Shown here piece after piece: positions 15,536-59,420 of a DNA stretch of 64,000 nucleotides. The position numbers and the translations under genes are program-made. This DNA is from Adineta ricciae (lineage: Eukaryota; Rotifera; Eurotatoria; Adinetida; Adinetidae): NCBI GenBank assembly GCA_905250025.1, contig CAJNOJ010000109.1:62001-126000 (forward strand). The letters are read 5' to 3'. Every line of letters starts with the position of its first letter. Within the stretch, counting starts at the first letter, position 1. The notes below the pieces were generated by a model. The model was given only the letters and a program-made list of their open reading frames with translations, did no database searches and had not been told where the DNA came from.

Positions 15536-18500
15536 ATGCAGCCGTTGAGTACTCTTGATACAACAAAACCGATTAATTTTGATGATTTGAATATTATTAT
15601 TCGTTCATTACCACCGCGACGACGGCAAAGTGGAACATCGATTATTCCATTTCGACCTTATGTCAAACGTTTAACGAGTGTTCGACAACCATTCTCGTTT
15701 GCAAATGGACGCGATGGATGGGTGACAACCGGAGAGAAAGTGGCATTTTTCAAACAGGAAAATGCACGATGCATTGGATCGTTGTTTTCCGATTGTGAAG
15801 CATCGGAAGTTATTCGATGGGATATCGAAGGAGAATCGACTCGTTTACCGATGATGTGTAAACTCTGGATCATCGGTAAGAAAGTTGTTTTCTTTTCTCG
15901 ATAAAATAAACATTCTTCATTGTTTAGTCGACGGTGCGGTTGTTGAACGAGGTAAACCACGAATGGTACAAGATGCAGCTGTGACAGTTTTCCGTGCTGG
16001 TCGAACACTTTTGTCATTACTAACAAATCAATTTCAAATGATCAGTCGTTCAACTGTAACAAGATACGATCGACGTCGTCGCCATTCATGGCACGATGTT
16101 AATGAATATCATAGCATACCGTACTTTCAATATACGAGTATAATCAATCCAGGCTTACCCCAAACCATTCAATGCGATTTGGACAATGAACAATTCAAAG
16201 GTCAAATTCAATCGCTGCCTTTCATTCGAGAAGAAACGACTGAAGAGCATTATATGATGAAACTTAAAGAACAAAAAGCAAAACAAACGATACATGATCA
16301 AGAATTACTACACGATCGAGTTCAAATTTCAATGACAACACAAACTGAGTAGGAAGAATTTCTTTTCTTTTATATTATTCTGCAAATATTTTCCTCTAGA
16401 CATGCCTTAAAAACTCGATCAACATCAATCGATTCAGGAATAACTTTGGCATCGCATCTCAATACTGAAATCACCGAAAGTACTTATTCGATTGCATCAA
16501 GGCAATCGCATGATATGGCAACAAGTACTCATGATGATATCTCATATTCAAATCAATCGATTTCAACACACGACGGAATTTGTTACACTAATCGCTCAAT
16601 TTCTACTCATGATGATCTTAATGATACACATCATTCGATTGCGATTGGAAATGATATTGAATATTCCGAACGTTCAATGTCAACTTATGATGATGTGAAG
16701 TACTCAAATCAATCGTGTTCCACGCATGATGATATCGTATATTCTGAACGTTCAATGTCAACCTATGATGATGTTCACTATGCCAATCAAGCCGTTGCAA
16801 CTCGTGATGATATTGAATACGCCGATCGTTCAATGTCAACTTATGACGATGTTACTTTCACTAATCAAGCTGTTTCTACTCACGATGGCGTTCAGTATGC
16901 CCACCAATCTTCTTCGACACATGACGACGTCGGCTATACAAGTCAATCGGTCTCGACACGTGATTATATCGAATATGTCAATCAATGTGTATCTACTTAT
17001 GATGATGTTCAACATTCACATCAATCGGTTTCCACTCGTGATTATATTGAATATGTCGATCAATCTGTTTCAACTGGCGATGGCATTCGATATATCAACC
17101 AAGCCGTTTCTACTCACGATGGTCTTCAGTACGCACATCAAGCTTGTTCAACACATGATGACGTCGCGTATGCAAATCAATCGGTTTCAACTCGTGACGA
17201 TATTGTGTACCTCAATCAATCGGTTTCTACGCGCGATGATATTCAACAGTTGCATCAATCGGTTTCGACTCGTGACTATATGGATGATACACATCATTCA
17301 ATTGGAACTGGTAGTGATATCGGCTATTCCACTCAATCAGTGTCGACTCGAGATGATTTTCAACATTCAAATCAATCTGTTGGTACCCATGATGATATTG
17401 AGTTCACCGATCGATCTGTTTCTACGGCTGATGGTATCGGATATTCTGATCAATCTGTTGCCACACGCGATGATATGGAATATCTAAATCAATCCGTATC
17501 GACACGTGACGATATTGGATATTCTCATCAATCAGTTGCTACACATGACGATTTTGAATATCTAAATCAATCTGTTTCTACTCGTGACGATGTCGAATAC
17601 TTGAATCAATCGGTCTCTACTCAAGACGAAGTTCAACATTCCAGTCGATCGATTGCTACAGGTACTGATTATCCTGACTTCTGGCTGCAATTTTCTACAA
17701 GTGAAATTCTATCTGAATATATTATACAACCACGCAAAGATGCTAAGTCACCTATTATTGTTTCTCGTCCATCGGACCAACTAACACGAACAGAAGTAGA
17801 GCACGATATTGACCTTGAATTGGAAAGACCACGACCGCCATCATCACGATCATTACGTACTCCAGAATCGTCCATTCTATCTCCGCGTCCATCCGATCAG
17901 TTAACTCGAGCAGAAACTGAACACGACACCGACCTTGAATTAGAAAGACCACGACCGCCATCATCACGATCACTACGTACTCCAGAATCGTCCATTCTAT
18001 CTCCGCGTCCATCCGATCAGTTAACTCGAGCAGAAACTGAACACGACACCGACCTTGAATTAGAAAGGCCACGACCGCCATCATCACGATCGCTACGTAC
18101 ACCGGTATCATCATCATCAGTAACAATCAGTAATCGTTATCAAGTTGTTGACCAAATTGATGATGAACAAACAACACCGAGAGCATTGCCCGGTACCAGT
18201 CAACGAGTAAGTTAAACTTTTCACAACTTCATTTACTTCAAATGCTGCACGATATGTTTTTCGTAGCTTGATTCTCCCGGTGATTTAGATTCCCATTTCA
18301 GTGATATGCAAATTGAAACGTCGAGTCGAAATTCAGCTCGATCACGTCGTGTAACATCATCGTCAGGCTACAATTCATTCGATTTAGCACTCAGTCGTCG
18401 AACATACTCAACCCCTGATCTCGACAATTCTCTTCCAACAGAAATTCCATCAAATATTGAAATCACTCATCCAGCTCCAGCTACAGTGTCCGACAACATA

Positions 18501-43811: not shown

Positions 43812-44972
43812 TCAAGCTTCAACATCTAAAACAAGACTCGAGATATTCATAGTAAAACCGATGAAGTCTTTCATTTGAAGGCCATCAGCATCTTTCTCAT
43901 GGTTTATTTTTGGCCTTCCATGCGAATCACCTTTTCTGAGCGTAATTCGATCAATGCGTCTTCGATGGTACTCTTTCAACATACTAGGTAAACGTATCAC
44001 GTGTCCATACGATTCAGGATACATTGCTGCATCTAGTTGATCTAAATGATACCATGGTACTCTTGTCAGAAAATGATGAGCGTTGTGATAGCCACAATTC
44101 AGAAACAGTATGTCTAGCATATGTCGGATCATTGTATGCCCACCAAATACTGTTGAATAAGTTGTTTGCTGTTCGTAACAAGCATCGCGTTTTGGCAACA
44201 TAGTGTCGCGTGATACAAATGGAATGGTGTGATGGTAAGCATCATATACACGTGCAATATCAATGAATAATATATGTGCAATGAAATAATATATTATGGA
44301 AGTTGGTTGTACATACCACATGATAAAGAAGAAAATATGTCGTAAAATGAACACTAGAAGAATACGAGCACGTAAACTTCGATACTTATCCACATATAAC
44401 GGAACAATCAAAGTACGCCACCATGCCACAATTGATAATACAGGAATATAGCAAGCTTCCAGTGGTAATATGATAAAACGTAACCAATATGGATAAGTTG
44501 ACAAGATGTATGATACTAAATATGAATCGATAGCTGCTTGAGTTAAATGATGCTCTTTATGTTGACTTCGTAGTTCCGAGAACGGCACATACAAAGCACC
44601 AGATATTACAATGCTTACTTCACCAACAATGTGATTGATCCATAGCGAAGACGTTACACAAGTATGAATACATTCATGTGTGATTGCTAATGCTACAAGC
44701 ATGGCATGTGTCAGTAAAATAGTTGCAATGAAAGAAATTAAACATGAATCAATGCACAATAAACAGTATAAAGCCAAAAGATAACTACCTATCATGTAAG
44801 TGAGAGTGATGATATTAATGAATAAGTTTTGCGATAGTAAATAAGCTTTCTGCTTGCGGCTCAGTTTTTTATAGGGAATATAAGCTTCATTGATAAAATC
44901 ACCGCCTGGACGAGTTTTTTCACGTGGTATAGATACAAATTTTTCGACGCTGTTAGCGCGCATGAAAACCAT
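43812..44972 (-). CDS. Membrane fatty-acid desaturase family protein
   Basis: An intronless ORF of 386 residues has the three histidine boxes of the integral-membrane desaturase/hydroxylase family: HECIH at 99-103, HKEHH at 138-142 and HNAHH at 296-300. The last sits in the context NCGYHNAHHF. Four or more hydrophobic helices are seen (about 49-75, 78-98, 165-190, 205-240). Such di-iron enzymes insert a double bond or hydroxyl into an acyl or related lipid chain in the endoplasmic reticulum, using a cytochrome-b5-type donor. No fused cytochrome b5 domain is present. The lack of introns beside the exon-rich EML gene, and the start of a repeat-rich stretch just upstream, would fit horizontal origin. 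Substrate and donor lineage cannot be told by eye. Start chosen as the first Met (another at residue 4). Confidence 0.85.
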   Translation of the reverse strand: MVFMRANSVEKFVSIPREKTRPGGDFINEAYIPYKKLSRKQKAYLLSQNLFINIITLTYMIGSYLLALYCLLCIDSCLISFIATILLTHAMLVALAITHECIHTCVTSSLWINHIVGEVSIVISGALYVPFSELRSQHKEHHLTQAAIDSYLVSYILSTYPYWLRFIILPLEACYIPVLSIVAWWRTLIVPLYVDKYRSLRARILLVFILRHIFFFIMWYVQPTSIIYYFIAHILFIDIARVYDAYHHTIPFVSRDTMLPKRDACYEQQTTYSTVFGGHTMIRHMLDILFLNCGYHNAHHFLTRVPWYHLDQLDAAMYPESYGHVIRLPSMLKEYHRRRIDRITLRKGDSHGRPKINHEKDADGLQMKDFIGFTMNISSLVLDVEA

Positions 44973-45485
44973 TACTTAAACACAAGACAATGCAAATTTT
45001 AGATAGATATGAATATCTAAAATTCTTTTGCTATTCAATGAAACGAAGTTATTCAAGAAAAAATTTGTAAATATTATGATGTATGATATTTTAATTAAAG
45101 ATCGATAATTATATACATAAGGATGTATGAAATTTCATTTGAATACTTTTACAGTGTTTCTATATTTAGTACGCAAAACTAGGGCACGACGGTCGTTTTC
45201 GCATGCGATTTGTCCTTACCTCGATGTATTTTTATGTACTTTGACATTATCTTTCCTTTCTTTCTATCGAGAGAAGGATATATAAGCGTGTGTTCTGTAT
45301 TAGAACGATGCAATCCTTTTTGGATTCCGCGATATCCACGAAACCAATTTTGGATTTCGTCAAAAACCTTTTTTGTTTTCAGTGTAAACGATCACTCACT
45401 GATTATAACTGCGTGCAGATACGAACTTCTCATCCTCGGTTGCCCCTGAGTGGTTCTTATACAGAATAGCGGTTATCATGATCAG

Positions 45486-47536: not shown

Positions 47537-48847
47537 TAGGTCATATGTCTTCAAAAGCAAAACATGAATTACCTTATCATCTTCTTTTGTCCTCTTATCA
47601 GCACTCTTCGATTCTCATAACCAATAAATCACACTATAAATTCATTCGAACGTCTATACACCTTAGTATCTCACTTACTTTTCTTACATAAAGCATAGCA
47701 ATATGGGTTCCCAAAGCAAAACTTCAGACATAAAGTCGTATTCAATCACAGGAATGGCTGGATCATACAATGAAAACTCTTCACCACAATTACTTGCTGT
47801 TCAACATGCCATTCCATTGATGCGAAAAGCTATTGATGCATGGGAGTCAATTCCTTCATCTTTCCCAACAATTATTGCTGATTTTGGCTCATCTCATGGT
47901 GCAAACACCACATTCATTATCAAAACAATGCTTGATTATATAAAACAATCGAAAAGCCAATTGGTTGATCAATCTTTCCTAATCATTTATAATGATTTAC
48001 CGTCAAATGATTGGGCTGCAGTGTTCAATATTGTGAATGAGGAAAGTCAATATTATGGTTTGGGTAATGGTCGTTCATTTTATTCACAATGTTTGCCATC
48101 AAACTCTCTGTCTATTGGCTTTTCGTCAACCTCTCTTCAATGGCTTTCTCGAAAACCCTGCAATATATCAAATCATTGTATCTTTTTATTTGCGCAAGCT
48201 TCCGAGCGTGCTGCATTTCGGATGCAAGCGAAAGAAGATCTGGAACAATTCATAAAGACTCGTTCGCATGAATTGATTTCAGGTGGTGTTTTGATTGTCA
48301 CAGCCGTTTGTTCTAATAAGAAAGGTGAAAGTATTTTAAACCATGCATGTGACTGTTTATATCAGTGTAGCAAACTGCTTCCCTTGAGTGAACAAGAATT
48401 GCTTGATTACACAATACCGATTTATTTTCGCGAGTATGAAGATTGTATTGATGAAAACCTTTTCAAACGATATTCATTTCAACTGGTTTCATCTTATTTT
48501 TATTTGGTTGATGTCGAATTCGACCGACATTTTGAAGTAGGAGAGATAAAGCTCGAAGAATTTGTTCAATTACATACTGGTTTTATGCGTAGTTGGAGCG
48601 AACCAGCATTGAGAAAAGCTTTGCAAAACAATGGAAAAAGAACAGAGGAAGAAATCAATGAATTACTGATTCAATTTTGGGCCTTATACAAAGATCAAGT
48701 GCGCAAAAGTCCCAGAGAATTCAAAAGCAGTTTCAATGAAGCATGTTTTGTATTGAAAAAATGTTAAGAATAAACGTGTAATTTGTTCTCAAAATACTAT
48801 ATATAATCTTCTGAGAAAAAGTTTATAAGCATTAATCATCAGTTATG
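47537..48847 (+). repeat. Duplicated segment, copy A (SABATH gene with flanks)
   Basis: This 1311-bp segment is repeated in the same orientation at 57910-59262. Homology begins at TAGGTCATATG, 166 bp before the start codon, and ends after CAGTTATG, about 80 bp past the stop. Outside these limits the two loci are unrelated. Confidence 0.93.
47703..48767 (+). CDS. SABATH-type carboxyl methyltransferase, copy A
   Basis: An intronless ORF of 354 residues belongs to the SAM-dependent SABATH (salicylate/jasmonate/benzoate-type) methyltransferase family of plants. Hallmarks: N-terminal ITGMAGSYNENSSPQ, paralleling the plant substrate/SAM segment; motif I DFGSSHGANT at 60-69; YNDLPSND at 96-103; SFYSQCLPSNSL at 125-136; SSTSLQWLS at 141-149; and FIKTRSHELISGGVLIVT. 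Length fits the family (~350-380). It would methylate a small-molecule carboxyl (or N) group using S-adenosylmethionine; the substrate is unknown. The family is mainly plant and microbial, so horizontal acquisition is inferred. Compared with copy B it differs by about ten residues, nearly all in the C-terminal 150. Neighbours are repeats and the DYW gene. Confidence 0.88.
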   Translation: MGSQSKTSDIKSYSITGMAGSYNENSSPQLLAVQHAIPLMRKAIDAWESIPSSFPTIIADFGSSHGANTTFIIKTMLDYIKQSKSQLVDQSFLIIYNDLPSNDWAAVFNIVNEESQYYGLGNGRSFYSQCLPSNSLSIGFSSTSLQWLSRKPCNISNHCIFLFAQASERAAFRMQAKEDLEQFIKTRSHELISGGVLIVTAVCSNKKGESILNHACDCLYQCSKLLPLSEQELLDYTIPIYFREYEDCIDENLFKRYSFQLVSSYFYLVDVEFDRHFEVGEIKLEEFVQLHTGFMRSWSEPALRKALQNNGKRTEEEINELLIQFWALYKDQVRKSPREFKSSFNEACFVLKKC

Positions 48848-51399: not shown

Positions 51400-53725
51400 T
51401 TAGAAATGATCATTACATGAACATTTTCCCTCAGAGAAATGATGAATACGATTCGTATCACGAATAATAATATCACACTGACGAATCCGACTAATCAACT
51501 TGATTGCACCATCTGTAACAAGAAACTAAAACATATTCTCCATCTATCAAGGTCTCGACTTACGACAATCACCACAAATGCGAAGATTCTTCACGATTTG
51601 AATGCGTGATGGAACTGGTCGCTGAATAAAATGATATGCAAGCGCCAATCTTTCACTGTGACTATTAAGAATCGAAGCGACAGTTTCATCAGGCATCATT
51701 TCACGTGTTATCCAACTTGAATCAAACTTGTGGCCATGCTCAGTGAGCTCTGTTTCGATCCGATGAAGTTCATCATAGATTTCTTCTGTTCGTGGATGCC
51801 TTCGATCTTTAACACGAAATTCCTTCAAGATAAATACGAAGTTGAACGAGCATCAGTGCAACAGAAGATTGATCTTTACCACAATTTCACCGTTGACTTC
51901 AGTCCAAGATACACCCACTTTTTTCTTGATACCTGATTGGCTCATTTCTCGTCTTAGCTGTGATGCTTCTTCCAAGTCACCTGATGACGCCAATATATTT
52001 GTGAAAAGCACAGAAGTCGATGCTAGACGGTCGTCGTCAAGATGGTCTAATTGTTTTATTCGTTGAGTTATTTGTCGTGCAAGAGGAACATCGTTTCGAT
52101 TACGAGCACCTGACAGCAAGGACACTAAAGATAGAAGAACAATATTAACTATTCAACGCGAAGTAAATTTTTCTCCATGAAACAACCTACTGTACATGGG
52201 TGCAACAGGAGATTGGTGACGCTCAAACTCTTCGATCAAATGTTTTGCTTCGTCAAAGAAAAATGAACGACTCAAGCAATCGACCTAAATGAACAAACAC
52301 GTTTTTTCTTTATATTTGATGTTAGTATCAATTTAAACACCATTGCTGTGTAAATATAATTGCTTTTGATAGGAATTGTTGTAAAAATTGAGCGACATTC
52401 ATTAACGAGGCCAGAATGTGAACAAGCGTTCAACACACAAACATGTGATCTCTCATCTCTCATTTCCAGTGGCATTCGATGATAGAGCTGAATTGACTCA
52501 TGGCCCATTCCATTCAATCCATATACATTAACTATTGAGACCAATATATAAACAGACAAATCACTAAGTTAACTTACTCATAGCATTGTATTCGGTACAA
52601 CTGGGTTTCTCGATTGTGTCAAAAATATCTTTAGCCTCCTTTACACATGCCACTTTGCCCTGCTCAATCATAAAAATATCCTAAACATAAATAAACAAAT
52701 GAGATGTCACCTACCCACATATGAATTAAGGTGGTTCGAAGTTGCAGATTAGATAACATCGAAGGTGGAATTTGGCTCGCGATCGATCGACAACGGGATT
52801 CAAGTCCTAATTCAGCACATGCTTGGATGACAAGAAGCAAAACGGCTGAATCTGCTGCAACATTTTCCTTCTTCATCTTTTCATATAGGTTAATAGTTTC
52901 CATAGGCATGCAATGATCGTTATAACATTTCATCATTTGTCCGTAAGTAACTGCAATTCGTTTCATCCGATGAAATAATTGTTCTGCATTGGAGATATCA
53001 CCGCACTTGATAAACATATCAAAGGCACCGACAACGATATATTCATCTTTACGATGAATCTCTGACGTGGAAAGCCACACTTGTTTACCAAAATCTAATG
53101 CTTGCGTTGTTCGAACTTGGGCACAGCTGTTAAACAAAAGGCCAAGAACAACTTCATTTGGAGCTTTTACGCCTCGAAAGAGTTCGATCGCTTTTCCAGC
53201 CATGTTATTTCGTATAAAACCTAGAGAAGAAAGAAACCGCCTTATAGGCACAATGAATCGAATGAATGACGCAACCTTTCATCATCGAACCATAATGAAC
53301 CATGGTTTTATTGACACAGGAATCGAAAACACGCTGAGCATCGCTCACTCGACCACATTGCACTACGCGATTTTAACGACAACAAGGTGAATCCATATAG
53401 TGAATGAAGCTTTACTGTAGAAATGTATAAGTGATGTTTGGACGAATATATTATTAGTGGATTGATTTGAGAGTTGCTCGTGAATGTCTTGACCGCGTTC
53501 AAGAGAACTTAATTGAGTACAAGCCTTGAGTGCTTGAACGATAATTCTGTCTGTTAACAGTTCAGAGTTTTTATGTCTGTCGAAGAGATCAAGTGTTTTA
53601 GTGAATAGTTTTCTCTCGTTAAGTCTTCTCATTTCCAGTTCAATATTCGCTCGAGGTAAGCTTGCAATTGTGCGTACAATGGTGAAATAATTTAATTTCA
53701 CTTGACGAAATAGGATAACAACCAT
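51400..53725 (-). CDS. Plant-type PPR protein with E and DYW deaminase domains (RNA-editing-factor-like)
   Basis: Nine exons: 53416-53725, 53276-53362, 52715-53220, 52578-52680, 52341-52531, 52191-52284, 51880-52124, 51564-51822 and 51400-51512. They total 1908 nt, 635 residues, phases closed. The N-terminus is basic and lacks acidic residues for ~29 positions, fitting a mitochondrial presequence. PPR repeats of PLS type follow (VQALKACTQLSSLERGQDIH, FVQTSLIHFYMQCGRV, VCVLNACSHSGLVNE). The E region is clear (SLLSGARNRNDVPLARQI, KKVGVSWTEVNGEI). The DYW domain spans ~513-635 with the deaminase signature H567-S-E569 and C595-G-D-C598, then HHFSEGKCSC and the terminus DHF in place of DYW. Plant relatives bind organelle RNA and convert C to U. 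All zinc and catalytic positions are retained. The ATG at 53725 is used; a TTG lies just upstream. Confidence 0.9.
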
Positions 53726-54128
53726 CTCCAATAAAAAATCAAGCTAAATGGAAATATGTATCGCCAATACTTTTAAAAGCATTAGCAATCGAAACGAATA
53801 ATTGAAGAAAAGTTTTATGTTGCGTGACTTCTTTTCTTTTGGTTTCGGTATCGGTACTAAGCAGCCGACGATGATAATGAGTGATGAATGAATACATACA
53901 TTGAACGTTAAGAAAATGATTGGCAGAGAATCATCATGTAAAAAACTTGTCCTGTCAAGCCTTCGTCTATAAATAGATGTCAGGCAATAACAGATGGAGC
54001 ATTTTTCCTCTCTCTGACGAGCCAGCGATCAGTCGCATTCTCTTTCGTCTATATACGTTAATTTTGTCGACTTTCGGTTCAAACAAAGAACCTTTTCTCT
54101 CTCTCTCTCGTCCTCTTGTAACTCCAAT

Positions 54129-54951
54129 CAATCTCGACCAAGATCCACCAAGTCTTTCCTACGGATCAAAGACACCGAAAAGGTGACCTTCGTCAAGAGA
54201 GTCGATCTCGAAATCCCCGAAGATCGCATCATGACAGCACTCAAGGACTTAGGACTTGAAGCGATGAATGTTACGCGGTTAACAAACAAAGACGGCAACA
54301 ATCCGACACGAACAGTGAAAATGATGTTCGTCGATGCCGAAAACCGAAATACCTTTGTCCACACAGGTCTACAAGTGGATTCGATGCATTTTCCAGCCGA
54401 GCCAGCCACACAAAACACCAAGCCAGTGAAATGCTATATCTGTATGCAATACAACCATCTAGCTAAGTACTGCAAAACCAAAAAGCAGGTGTGTGCACGT
54501 TGCGGAGAAAATCATCGGCTTGACCAATGCACAGCGTCTACAGACACGTCCAAATGTCGCAACGGCAATCATCTCACCTCGTCTGTAGACTGCCCAAAAT
54601 ATAAGGAACAGGAGAAAAAAAGCGCGAAACTTGGTCAACCGACTATTCATCAACCTTCAACAAAAGGTCGAGAAACTGGAAAAGCTTATTGCCTCCAGCG
54701 AATCGACCACATCCATCCCAACAACTACCACAGATCAACTGACGCCAACGAATTCGACTTCATCAAACGACAAGACAATGACTGTTGTGCAAAGCAGCAA
54801 TGGAGACGCCTCGAAAGAGAGTCAAACAGCTAAGGTAAGGCACAACAAACAGAATGAACCAGCGAAACGAAAACTCGCAGAAGCCAACAACTCTCTCGAT
54901 GCTTCGACTGGCGAAAACAAAGGCATCAAGATCTCCAACGACGATGATTAG
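54129..54951 (+). pseudogene. LINE ORF1 (gag-like, CCHC zinc knuckles), broken
   Basis: The main frame (from ~54183) shows a conserved gag-like segment (MTALKDLGLEAMNVTRLTN) and zinc knuckles CYICMQYNHLAKYC and CARCGENHRLDQC. A third, degenerate one (CRNGNHLTSSVDC) has lost its first Cys pair. A frame change near 54630 leads into a Lys/Glu-rich coiled-coil-like tail (QQKVEKLEKLIASSE) that ends at the TAG 54949-54951. The N-terminal part before 54183 is unclear. The protein would bind the LINE RNA. Confidence 0.7.
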
Positions 54952-57330
54952 AGTGTGTCATATCAATGTCACCTCTGTCACCAAACATCGCGATGAACTC
55001 TTGGCCAGATTCTCCCAATACGACGTCATCTCCGTTAATGAAAGTAACCTGAAGAGTGAACGTCAGTTTGCTTTGAAAGGCTACAACATTTTCAGAAACA
55101 ACCGAGTAGGGAAACCTAGTGGAGGAGTACTACTGGCAGTGAAGCAGCAAATCAAAAGCCGAGAACTGATCTGCAAGACATCGCAAGAAAATGAACTGAT
55201 TGCAGTCCAACTCGAAACAAAAACATACAAGTCCATGCTGATAGCGTCGATATGTGTCCCTCCTCGAGCAAGACTGAACATCGACGTTTTCCACGAGTTA
55301 TACGGAATCAACAACGATTGTATTATTGTTGGAGATCTGAATGCAGCACTCCTCCAGATGGGATCTAGGAGAACGAACGCAAAAGGCAAACAGTTCCAAG
55401 GACTGATCAACGAAGGCTTTTTGAACTGTGTGGACGATGCTACTACCACATTTGAAAAGAACGATTACGAAGAAAAAATTGACTGGATTTTAGCTAGTCA
55501 ACCACTCTTTTCATTCATATCAAATGTCGAGACACATCCAACATTAGGACTTCTTAGTGGACACAAGCCATTAACCTTCGATATCTCGATCGGAACTGAA
55601 GCCAACGCCGCATCACCACGATTATCGCTCAACTTCAAGAGAGCCAACTGGAGGAAATACAGAAATACACTGGACGAAAAACTGAAACCATGGAACGAGC
55701 TAGATCCAACCTCACCCGGTGACATAGACGACTATGCAGAGTTCGTCACTGATTGCATCACCGCTGCCTCCAACGTAGCCATCCCAACAGCATCAATGCC
55801 GAATACAAACTTCAAAGTAAGTGAAGCTTCCCAACGTCTGATCAAGAACAAACATCAAGCATATCGACGTTGGAAAAAGACTGGAGAAGCACCAGACAAA
55901 CAACAATTCTACAACTCTAAAGTCCTGCTAGCCAACTCACTTAGAAACGACAGAAGGCACAAGTTTAAGCAATTAATGGAATCCCTCTGTCGAAAGAAGA
56001 TGTACTCGGATGAAATATGGCTCACGGTGCGAAAGTTCTACAACAATCAGATCAAGCAAACATACCCGAGCACGATACAGTACAACAAAACTATAGCAGC
56101 GACAGGCAAAGAGAAGGCAGATATCTTCGCGGATTATTTCAAGAAGGAGGTCTACTTCAAAGTGTCTGACACGCTCCCGTTTCACAAGCAAGTTGTACGA
56201 CAAACCAAAAAAGTGAAGAAGGGTATATTACATCCGTCAACCACGACCAAATCGAAAAAGGTTTCAACCAAAGAACTTAAGTGGCATATCAAACAACTAC
56301 GCAACAGCACCATTGGCCCTGATAATGTGCACAACAGATGCCTGAAAAACCACACCGAGTTATTTGTACCACACCTCACAGCGTTGTACAATATGATTCT
56401 GGAAGAAAGCACATATTATCTTACTGTTGAAGCCGAACAAGGACAAGCGTCTACCATCCAGCTATCGTCTCATCAGTCTCCTGAGCTGTCTCGGTAAGCT
56501 GCTGGAGAAGATCATCAAGCAAAGGCTCACGCTCGAAATCGAACGTCGAAACATTCTGCCAGCACATCAGGCAGGATTATGTGCGAAGAAGAGTACACTA
56601 TACAACATCGTCCGACTTGAACGCTTCGCAAGAAGTAAACTCCATCGGCCCGAAAGTAGACAACACTCCGCTGTCATTTGATTCAGTCTGGCACGATGGC
56701 CTTATATACAAGCTACATGATCTTCGTCTCCCGCAATACCTTACCAACTACCTGATCTCCTCCCTCCACAAAAGGAGTGCTACAATCGAAATTGGCAATG
56801 ATATATCTCGTCCGTTTCAGCTGCAGAGTGGTACACCACAAGGGTCGCCGTTATCTCCACTCCTATACATCATCTACACGACCGACTCGATGAACGATAT
56901 ATCACCGCACACGGAACATGGTCTCTTCGGTGACGACACTGCTCTATGAACATCATCCAACACCCTGACCAGACTTTCACAAAGACTACAACAATCCATA
57001 GATGCATTCGAAAGTTGATGCAAATCATGGAAACTGAAGCTACAACCAACAAAGACCGAGATGATCCGCTTTAGACTTCACCCAAGAAAGAAATACAAGC
57101 ATCCAGTAGAAGCCAAAGTCGAAAATACTACCATCAAACCTCTGGATGCAACCCGATACTTGGGCGTAATTATCGACAAGCAACTGAAGTTCAGAAATCA
57201 TCTTCAACATCTCGAATCGAAAATGGCTGGACGCATTAGTCTCCTACGATACTTAGCCAAATCAGCGCAAGAACCTAACCAAAAGACGATGATAAACACC
57301 TTCAAGACATCACAGGCCAACTATGACAAA
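54944..57330 (+). pseudogene. LINE ORF2 (endonuclease-reverse transcriptase), broken
   Basis: The first frame, open to ~56420, carries an AP-type endonuclease: HINVTSVTKHRDEL, NESNL, GGVLLAVKQ, IIVGDLNA and SGHKPLTFD (His-Lys in place of the usual Asp-His). Reverse-transcriptase motifs continue in other frames: SYRLISLLSCLGKLLEKII, FDSVWHDGLIYKL, GTPQGSPLSPLLYI, FGDDTAL (instead of Y/F-A-D-D) and YLGVIIDKQLKF. Two or more frameshifts and two in-frame stops make it inactive. No RNase H domain is evident. Confidence 0.75.
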
Positions 57331-57948
57331 ACACCAGCTCCAATGCAAAGGACTATCTGCGCCGTCTTACATGACGACGGCCGATCTAAGACAACCCGAC
57401 CATCCTTCTATCTCTCTTCGTGAAGACAGTTAACGACTATACGTGACGTACACATCTTCGATATTCGGTTTCATCCGTTCTACACGCTATGTTAACGGCA
57501 GCGTGTAACAGCACTCTCCACTATTAACGCTAGCGCCGAGAACATAGATCATTCTTAGGTCGGCTGAAACTGTGCGAAAATTGTTAAATCGGAATCACGT
57601 ACAAAACGTTTGATCTAGAACGAAGAAAAGGCAATCATCGACGTATACATCGGCTCGTTCCTGCACATATAGGTCGATGTTCCTTCGAAGATAACTACCG
57701 CTACATACCAAACTCTCTCTTTTTTATTTTAATTTTCTTTTCTTTTCTCTACGAGACATAAGACATCAGTCCTGCGTCTCTTCTCTCCTGCCAGCTTTAT
57801 AACCAATCTGTCCGTTGTTTCCTCTTTCTCTCCTTTCATTCGGGCTGTTTGTTTTCCTTTCCTCTAAACTGGTTGCTTAATAACAAATAAAGCGACGACT
57901 CCAAAAAAATAGGTCATATGTCTTCAAAAGCAAAACATGAATTACCTT

Positions 57949-58014
57949 ATCATTTTCTTTTGTCCTCTTATCATCTTCTTTTGTCCTCTTATCATCTTCT
58001 TTTGTTCTCTTATC
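57949..58014 (+). repeat. Three copies of a 21-bp unit upstream of SABATH copy B
   Basis: The unit TCCTCTTATCATCTTCTTTTG occurs about three times here and once upstream of copy A (near 47575). The 42-bp length difference between the two leaders equals two units. Confidence 0.85.
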
Positions 58015-58117
58015 AGCATTCTTCGAATCTCATAACCAATAAATCACACTATAAATTCATTCGAACGTCTATACACCTTAGTATCTCACTTACTTTTCTT
58101 ACATAAAGCATAGCAAT

Positions 58118-59182
58118 ATGGATTCTCAAAGCAAAACTTCAGACATAAAGTCGTATTCAATCACAGGAATGGCTGGATCATACAATGAAAACTCTTCACC
58201 ACAATTACTTGCTGTTCAACATGCCATTCCATTGATGCGAAAAGCTATTGATGCATGGGAGTCAATTCCTTCATCTTTCCCAACAATTATTGCTGATTTT
58301 GGCTCATCTCATGGTGCAAACACCACATTCATTATCAAAACAATGCTTGATTATATAAAACAATCGAAAAGCCAATTGGTTGATCAATCTTTCCTAATCA
58401 TTTATAATGATTTACCGTCAAATGATTGGGCTGCAGTGTTCAATATTGTGAATGAGGAAAGTCAATATTATGGTTTGGGTAATGGTCGTTCATTTTATTC
58501 ACAATGTTTGCCATCAAACTCTCTGTCTATTGGCTTTTCGTCAACCTCTCTTCAATGGCTTTCTCGAAAACCCTGCAATATATCAAATCATTGTATCTTT
58601 TTATTTGCGCAAGCTTCCGAGCGTGCTGCATTTCGGATGCAAGCGAAAGAAGATCTGGAACAATTCATAAAGACTCGTTCGCATGAATTGATTTCAGGTG
58701 GTGTTTTGATTGTCACAGCCGTCTGTTCTAATAAGAAAGATGAAAGTATTCCAAACCATCCATGTGACTGCTTATATCAGTGTAGCAAACTACTTCCCTT
58801 GAGTGAACAAGAATTGCTTGATTACACAATACCGATTTATTTTCGCGAGTATGAAGATTGTATTGATGAAAACCTTTTCAAACGATATTCATTTCAACTG
58901 GTTTCATCTTACTTTTATTCGGTTGATTTCGAATTCGACCGACATTTTGAAGTAGGAGAGATAAAGCTCGAAGAATTTGTTCAATTACATACCGGTTTTA
59001 TGCGTAGTTGGGGCGAACCAGCATTGAGAAAAGCTTTGCAAAACAATGGAAAAAGAACAGAGGAAGAAATCAATGAATTACTGATTCAATTTTGGGCCTT
59101 ATACAAAGATCAAGTACGCAGAAGTCCCAGAGAATTCAAAGGCAGTTTCAATGAAGCATGTTTTGTATTGAAAAAATGTTAA
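58118..59182 (+). CDS. SABATH-type carboxyl methyltransferase, copy B
   Basis: An intronless ORF of 354 residues with every SABATH hallmark seen in copy A (DFGSSHGANT, YNDLPSND, SFYSQCLPSNSL, SSTSLQWLS). Relative to copy A: G2D near the start, then changes only after residue ~210 (for example GESILNHA to DESIPNHP, YLVDV to YSVDF, SWSEP to SWGEP, RKSP to RRSP). Both frames are intact, so both may be functional. Leader and 3' flank are shared for ~0.2 and ~0.08 kb. The same reaction is inferred: SAM-dependent methylation of a small acid. The LINE 3' end lies directly upstream, so upstream regulatory DNA beyond the 207-bp leader differs between copies. Confidence 0.88.
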   Translation: MDSQSKTSDIKSYSITGMAGSYNENSSPQLLAVQHAIPLMRKAIDAWESIPSSFPTIIADFGSSHGANTTFIIKTMLDYIKQSKSQLVDQSFLIIYNDLPSNDWAAVFNIVNEESQYYGLGNGRSFYSQCLPSNSLSIGFSSTSLQWLSRKPCNISNHCIFLFAQASERAAFRMQAKEDLEQFIKTRSHELISGGVLIVTAVCSNKKDESIPNHPCDCLYQCSKLLPLSEQELLDYTIPIYFREYEDCIDENLFKRYSFQLVSSYFYSVDFEFDRHFEVGEIKLEEFVQLHTGFMRSWGEPALRKALQNNGKRTEEEINELLIQFWALYKDQVRRSPREFKGSFNEACFVLKKC

Positions 59183-59284
59183 GAATAAACGTGTAATTTG
59201 TTTTCAAAATACTATATATAATCTTCTGAGAAAAAGTTTATAAGCATTAATCATCAGTTATGGAGTAGTGTAGAAATCGTTAAC

Positions 59285-59420
59285 TCGATTTTAGTATTAA
59301 ACATCTTCTTCGAGTTTTCGAGTTTTAAACTTATAAATCTAGAACTCGAAGCTTCGAGTTCTTAAATTTAGAAGTTGAATAGTTGAAAACTCGAACTGAA
59401 AGTTTAATACTCGAATAGTC
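59285..59420. repeat. Fold-back inverted repeat (hairpin)
   Basis: AGAACTCGAAGCTTCGAGTTCT (59341-59362) is a perfect 22-bp palindrome at the centre of a longer imperfect inverted repeat. AGTATTAAAC at 59293-59302 pairs with GTTTAATACT at 59402-59411, symmetric about 59351. Repeated CTCGA words fill the arms. It begins ~25 bp after the end of duplicated segment B. Confidence 0.8.

Follow-up and report, generated by a model that had tools for sequence, protein, structure and literature searches.

An intact nine-exon gene for a plant-type PPR-DYW protein in a rotifer-like genomic context

Introduction

Site-specific C-to-U editing of organelle RNA, carried out by PPR-DYW proteins, characterizes land plants and a few protists. 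A gene of this family in a 64,000-nucleotide stretch of apparently animal DNA, the whole of which is referred to below as the window, raises the question whether an animal has taken over such an enzyme and puts it to use. The presence of such a gene in bdelloid rotifers is already known, given that PPR-DYW proteins from Adineta ricciae and Philodina roseola have been published: they were used in a published analysis (PMC4202320), which cites Iyer 2011 and Schallenberg-Rudinger 2013. Rotifers are also listed among the carriers of DYW proteins in PMC5295000; the original prediction for this locus, made from the sequence alone, had mentioned reports from bdelloids. The accessible text of PMC5982333 names rotifers and pentatricopeptide apart from each other, and DYW is absent from it. 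In PMC4202320, the scattered distribution of DYW proteins is read as the result of horizontal transfer from early land plants, and editing in rotifers goes unreported in the accessible sections of that paper.

In the open-access literature on PPR and DYW proteins of rotifers, bdelloids and protists, as far as its text was available, we found no report of C-to-U editing in rotifers. The available portions of two papers on bdelloid mitochondria (PMC2784805 and PMC3426538) hold no statement for or against editing, the phrase “RNA editing” occurring 0 times in the former; the latter describes cDNA libraries of the DYW carriers A. ricciae and P. roseola. Within the same accessible literature, we found no description of the nine-exon structure, the inventory of active-site residues, the DHF end and the worn PPR code that are presented here.

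Results

A spliced reading frame on the minus strand

Nine exons, running on the minus strand from the ATG at 53725 to the stop codon at 51400, join into an uninterrupted reading frame of 1887 nt that encodes a protein of 628 aa (Table 1). The bounds are exactly those of the original prediction, which had not given the strand, and the nine exons and eight introns, mostly of 46–66 bp, that it proposed yield a continuous frame, all eight introns being of the GT-AG type and 46–66 bp long. A simple custom gene finder arrived at the same start and stop and again at nine exons. Its codon model was built from 12 neighboring ORFs (the PPR-DYW gene and a nearby LINE were excluded), and its splice weights and permitted intron length (38–110 bp) were fixed by hand after the gene had been seen. 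Seven introns agreed exactly; the donor of intron 2 was placed 15 nt upstream. With splice weights and intron lengths set in this way, the best spliced-ORF score of the region was 61.8, compared to a maximum of 13.7 among 200 dinucleotide shuffles, none of which matched it, and to 6.7 on the plus strand; the reading frame is far beyond chance.

The splice sites of introns 2 and 3 are less certain than the others. For intron 2, we retained the donor at 53275 over the one at 53290 preferred by the gene finder because the former preserves the PPR repeat, and for intron 3, the acceptor at 52660 was picked because it keeps the repeat length, the gene finder having taken the same acceptor. Intron positions recur within the repeats: S1 (after HFY) and the third S repeat (after HMW) are interrupted at the same point, and P2 and S2 each have an intron behind “AM” in their first helix. 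The recurrence may be a trace of preferred sites of intron gain.

Table 1 Features of the PPR-DYW gene and of the surrounding window (positions are those of the window).
Feature	Coordinates	Strand	Description	Basis
Exon 1	53416..53725	-	residues 1-103: basic N-terminus, P1, L1, first part of S1	spliced frame, gene finder
Exon 2	53276..53362	-	residues 104-132: end of S1, start of second P repeat; ends at 53291 in the gene finder	
Exon 3	52715..53220	-	residues 133-301: P, L, S, P, L, start of S	spliced frame, gene finder
Exon 4	52578..52659	-	residues 302-328: end of S repeat, start of P2	spliced frame, gene finder
Exon 5	52341..52531	-	residues 329-392: P2, L2, start of S2	spliced frame, gene finder
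Exon 6	52191..52284	-	residues 393-423: S2, start of E1	spliced frame, gene finder
Exon 7	51880..52124	-	residues 424-505: E1, E2, K491, PG-box start of DYW domain	spliced frame, Pfam, gene finder
Exon 8	51564..51822	-	residues 506-591: gating insertion, HSE (560-562), CGDC (588-591)	spliced frame, alignment
Exon 9	51400..51512	-	residues 592-628 and stop: second zinc site (H592, H615, C622, C624), terminal DHF	
Intron 1	53363..53415	-	53 bp, GTAAAG..TAG	spliced frame, gene finder
Intron 2	53221..53275	-	55 bp, weak donor GTTGCG; gene finder prefers donor at 53290	
Intron 3	52660..52714	-	55 bp, GTAGGT..CAG	spliced frame, gene finder
Intron 4	52532..52577	-	46 bp	spliced frame, gene finder
Intron 5	52285..52340	-	56 bp	spliced frame, gene finder
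Intron 6	52125..52190	-	66 bp	spliced frame, gene finder
Intron 7	51823..51879	-	57 bp, inside start of DYW domain	spliced frame, gene finder
Intron 8	51513..51563	-	51 bp, interrupts codon of H592	spliced frame, gene finder
AATAAA	51396..51401	-	overlaps stop codon; possible polyadenylation signal	
Methyltransferase copies (PF03492)	47573-48847 and 57988-59262	+	intronless	Pfam
LINE-type element	54018-57420	+	separate ORFs: zinc-knuckle-like, endonuclease (PF03372), reverse transcriptase (PF00078)	
Fatty acid desaturase ORF	43815-44975	-	PF00487, uninterrupted, 387 aa	
Tandem repeats	16651-18100	+	39/78-bp units and a 120-bp unit (97% matches), within a 620-aa ORF	
Imperfect inverted repeat	59293-59411		82% identical to its own complement; just downstream of second methyltransferase copy	

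Domain and repeat architecture

The claim of a complete plant-type PPR-E-DYW protein was borne out by the Pfam profiles, three of which scored above their cut-offs: PPR (8.1e-33; 110.8 bits against a cut-off of 25), DYW_deaminase (PF14432; 2.5e-32; 111 bits against 24; residues 535–627) and, between the array and the DYW domain, E_motif (1.6e-8; 35.1 bits against 27.3). The E+ motif model stayed below its cut-off in the 628-aa protein (14.8 bits against 24), and NCBIfam added nothing above cut-off except one PPR repeat model. In a phmmer search of solved structures, the best match, to the synthetic PPR-DYW protein 9kfx, aligned over residues 44–627 (E = 6e-105), and the DYW domain of OTP86 (7o4e) was matched at E = 1.8e-31. 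Over the DYW region, the protein shares 44% of residues with 9kfx and 40% with OTP86 7o4e.

Parsed by hand, the array consists of four P-L-S triplets of gapless motifs, in the order P1-L1-S1, P-L-S, P-L-S, P2-L2-S2, followed by E1, E2 and DYW. The candidate PG box reads VGVSWTEVNGEIVEF and matches 7 of the 10 specified letters of the 15-residue pattern PGxSWIEVxGxxHxF given in PMC4202320, with mismatches at P, I and H. A gating insertion is present between the PG box and HxE, identical to that of OTP86 at 15 of 55 positions, with one single-residue gap in each row of the alignment. The protein resembles OTP86 (7o4e, 7o4f) and 9kfx in its PLS array, E region, PG-box-like start, gating insertion and both zinc sites, but differs from the land-plant PPR-DYW factors in the eight introns of its gene, its end (DHF rather than DYW or DSW), its non-canonical code residues and the divergent gating region. 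Structure prediction for single exons added little: that for exon 8 alone reached a pLDDT of 46, and that for exon 3 gave helices throughout at low confidence (pLDDT 61); the best matches of the exon 3 model in the PDB were mostly designed PPR proteins, with none of the 404 matches reaching E 0.001.

The DYW active site

The deaminase signatures read from the sequence in the original prediction, that is, HSE, CxxC and HHF...CSC, are all found, at residues 560–562 (HSE), 588–591 (CGDC, followed by H592), 615–617 (HHF) and 622–624 (CSC). Aligned with OTP86, the ligands of the first zinc (Zn1), H560, C588 and C591, correspond to H892, C920 and C923; the catalytic E562 corresponds to E894; and the ligands of the structural zinc (Zn2), H592, H615, C622 and C624, correspond to H924, H947, C954 and C956. 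None of the seven zinc ligands has been lost, nor has the catalytic glutamate, and, to judge from this alignment, the active site is intact. Among the 27 listed OTP86 positions, whose roles we take from the accessible text of PMC7611903, 21 are identical, including S828, D872, S893, R895, K915, D922 and D958, and six are changed (837, 891, 912, 914, 919 and 959 in OTP86 numbering). OTP86 R912 and T914 are Q and V in the protein described here; OTP86 mutants at these two positions have reduced activity, which is ascribed to low solubility (PMC7611903). The lysine three residues ahead of the PG-box glycine, described as needed in PPR56, is present (K491, corresponding to OTP86 K823).

The protein ends in DHF, the last residue being F628; the OTP86 row of the alignment ends short of W960. 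According to the sections of PMC7611903 available to us, the terminal tryptophan is essential in DYW1 and PpPPR65, and its replacement by alanine lowers the activity of OTP86, whereas the middle residue of the DYW end is free in OTP86 and DYW1, although changing it hurt PpPPR65. Because the terminal tryptophan is absent, we do not assign the protein to the class of canonical editing-active DYW enzymes.

PPR code and mitochondrial targeting

Applying the PPR code, as given in a figure legend of PMC10482289, to the repeats had been proposed as a way to predict a target; almost nothing was gained. In our hand register, the residues at position 5 and the last position of the eight P and S repeats are, in order, E/D, T/T, G/N, G/I, G/D, T/S, N/D and T/V, such that a code pair is present in only one repeat, P2 (N and D), which would read U at -6. 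Threonine at position 5 of S1, the third S repeat and S2 suggests purines at -13, -7 and -4. This readout, one U and three purines, is too little, and therefore no target can be named.

The worn code and the altered C-terminus bring up the possibility that the protein is expressed and imported but has lost deamination, acting instead as a factor for processing, stabilization or translation of mitochondrial RNA, with the DYW domain kept for structure or for binding a partner. Among the rival explanations, an RNA-binding protein of this kind best fits the terminal phenylalanine and the worn code, and the R912Q and T914V changes point the same way. However, the seven zinc ligands, the catalytic glutamate and the K915/S828/S893 network are all kept, which weighs against the loss of editing because residues that are not needed for binding would be expected to drift. 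We consider a non-editing factor unlikely on balance.

The suggestion that the basic N-terminus targets the protein to mitochondria holds with respect to charge, residues 1–28 containing four K/R and no D/E, but not with respect to amphipathicity, the best N-terminal hydrophobic moment being reached by 606 of 2000 shuffles. Mitochondrial import is plausible and is not supported by the amphipathicity test. With targeting evidence this weak, the enzyme might instead act outside mitochondria, on nuclear-cytosolic RNA or on RNA of transposons or viruses, as plant factors can edit nuclear transcripts in human cells (PMC9508816). We rate such a location as improbable: there is no positive evidence for it, and the characterized relatives in the literature, as far as its text was accessible, act in organelles of their own hosts.

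Genome context

Of the 185 stop-to-stop ORFs of at least 70 aa in the window, 20 were scanned with Pfam profiles. One encodes a rhodopsin-type GPCR (106 bits against a cut-off of 30.5), and two single-exon ORFs resemble EML beta-propellers at scores below the Pfam cut-offs (53.8 against 90 and 62.6 against 88.2); GPCR-type and EML-type ORFs fit an animal. ARAGORN and Rfam searches gave no match anywhere in the window. The median intron length is 55 bp for the eight introns of the PPR-DYW gene and 56 bp for 70 introns predicted in the neighbors, including the GPCR-type gene, a comparison limited by the 38–110 bp that the gene finder allows. Among these 70 introns, 39 come from one 40-exon model that plainly fuses genes; without that model, the median of the remaining 31 is still 56 bp. 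In four bdelloids, the median intron measures 55, 58, 67 and 61 bp, and GC contents are 30.8–35.6% (PMC5916493), so that the assignment to a rotifer fits the median intron size and, roughly, the GC content, which at 36.2% for the window is just above the bdelloid range.

The GC3 of the PPR-DYW gene, 0.32, is the second highest of the gene models (neighbors, 0.25–0.34), and its synonymous codon fit to the neighbors, 0.109, is the lowest of 11 models, the other ten spanning 0.122–0.209. Together, the low codon fit and the high GC3 amount at most to a slight trace of foreign origin.

The plant-like domain order could in principle mean that the segment is plant or protist contamination or that the contig is chimeric. 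The original prediction held plant contamination to be unlikely, and we agree because the introns resemble those predicted in the neighbors. The gene finder recovers the gene with codons of its neighbors, the GC3 value lies within their range, and the same window contains the GPCR-type ORF above its Pfam cut-off and the EML-type ORFs below theirs; the nuclear context is animal-like. Contamination or chimerism thus appears extremely improbable.

Two direct copies of a PF03492 methyltransferase, 98.35% identical over 1275 nt without gaps and with 9 aa differences over 366-residue ORFs, flank the PPR-DYW gene and a LINE-type element. We take PF03492 to be the SABATH type; among solved structures, a fatty acid O-methyltransferase comes nearest, followed by plant-type enzymes. 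A scan of genome_contigs for relatives of the methyltransferase produced 31 matches, 0 of them confirmed, and our literature search found no title on SABATH in rotifers. GC content over the LINE is 43–45%, compared to 36.2% for the whole window; its zinc-knuckle-like ORF had no Pfam match and was assigned by eye. Bdelloid genomes are known for foreign genes (PMC5916493), and the patch comprising the PPR-DYW gene, the LINE and the two methyltransferase copies looks like a foreign-gene patch. An imperfect inverted repeat lies next to the second methyltransferase copy, and tandem repeats occur within a long ORF elsewhere in the window (Table 1). The window also encodes a fatty acid desaturase in an uninterrupted ORF; in Adineta steineri, a desaturase is described as intronless and horizontally acquired (PMC10597677).

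That the gene shares its patch with a LINE and two almost identical methyltransferase copies of possibly foreign origin, and that its codon fit is the lowest among the 11 models, would be compatible with an acquired gene that is not used and is heading for decay. Against this stand 1887 nt that contain neither a stop nor a frameshift. Plant DYW genes are usually intronless, and if the donor gene was too, the eight neighbor-sized introns suggest long residence. A decaying gene is, in our estimate, highly improbable.

Relatives among non-plant DYW proteins

Judged by their published descriptions, the PPR-DYW proteins of A. ricciae and P. roseola belong to the same family and probably to the same animal group as the protein described here. 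On the same basis, the PPR-DYW proteins of the heteroloboseans Naegleria and Acrasis are likewise non-plant DYW proteins but come from protists. In PMC4202320, as far as accessible, the Naegleria DYW proteins group with those of rotifers at a posterior of 0.93, and Acrasis is reported to combine DYW proteins with two confirmed C-to-U sites in its mitochondria. The fungal/paradinid PPR-DYW clade (PMC11946409) comprises further non-plant DYW proteins with the same zinc signature, which share a two-residue deletion located, in the numbering of that paper, between HxE and CxxC. The protein described here keeps the plant spacing, with 28 residues from H560 to C588 as from H892 to C920 in OTP86; lacking the deletion, it therefore falls outside this clade, and membership was rejected.

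Pattern scans of contig collections yielded no confirmed relatives: with two peptide patterns from the DYW alignment, 14 matches in viral_contigs and 36 in genome_contigs were obtained, 0 confirmed in either, and with six patterns from the full protein, 4 matches in viral_contigs, again 0 confirmed.

Discussion

We give about an even chance to the explanation that this is a functional nuclear gene adapted to its host, a rotifer of the bdelloid type, and that it encodes a PLS-class PPR-DYW protein derived from land plants and editing mitochondrial C to U. The gene would have come from land plants directly or through protists, and its product would be imported into mitochondria. There, by homology with characterized factors, about twelve PPR repeats would bind a stretch of a mitochondrial transcript, with S2 placed at -4, four bases ahead of the target C; the gating segment would then move, and the zinc-dependent DYW domain would deaminate the target C to U.

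In favor of this explanation, we count the nine-exon frame unmatched by any shuffle, the match to 9kfx, the zinc and catalytic residues, K491, the editing in Acrasis and the grouping of Naegleria with rotifers. Counted against an editing role are the phenylalanine in place of the terminal tryptophan, the single repeat in eight that fits the code, the shuffle-level amphipathicity of the N-terminus, and R912Q and T914V. The earlier suggestion of an active editing enzyme in rotifer mitochondria has the intact active site in its favor but is weakened by the C-terminus, the N-terminal amphipathicity and the PPR code. C-to-U editing of a mitochondrial RNA would be the likeliest role. Somewhat short of an even chance, and put forward tentatively, is the broader proposition of C-to-U editing of mitochondrial (or other) RNA in an animal by means of an acquired, DHF-ended PPR-DYW protein with self-evolved, largely non-canonical recognition rules.

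The presence of the gene family in bdelloids has been published before, and the present account adds an intact nine-exon PPR-DYW gene. If the rotifer uses the enzyme, an animal would have acquired an enzyme for organelle editing, and the case would provide a natural test of PPR code drift.
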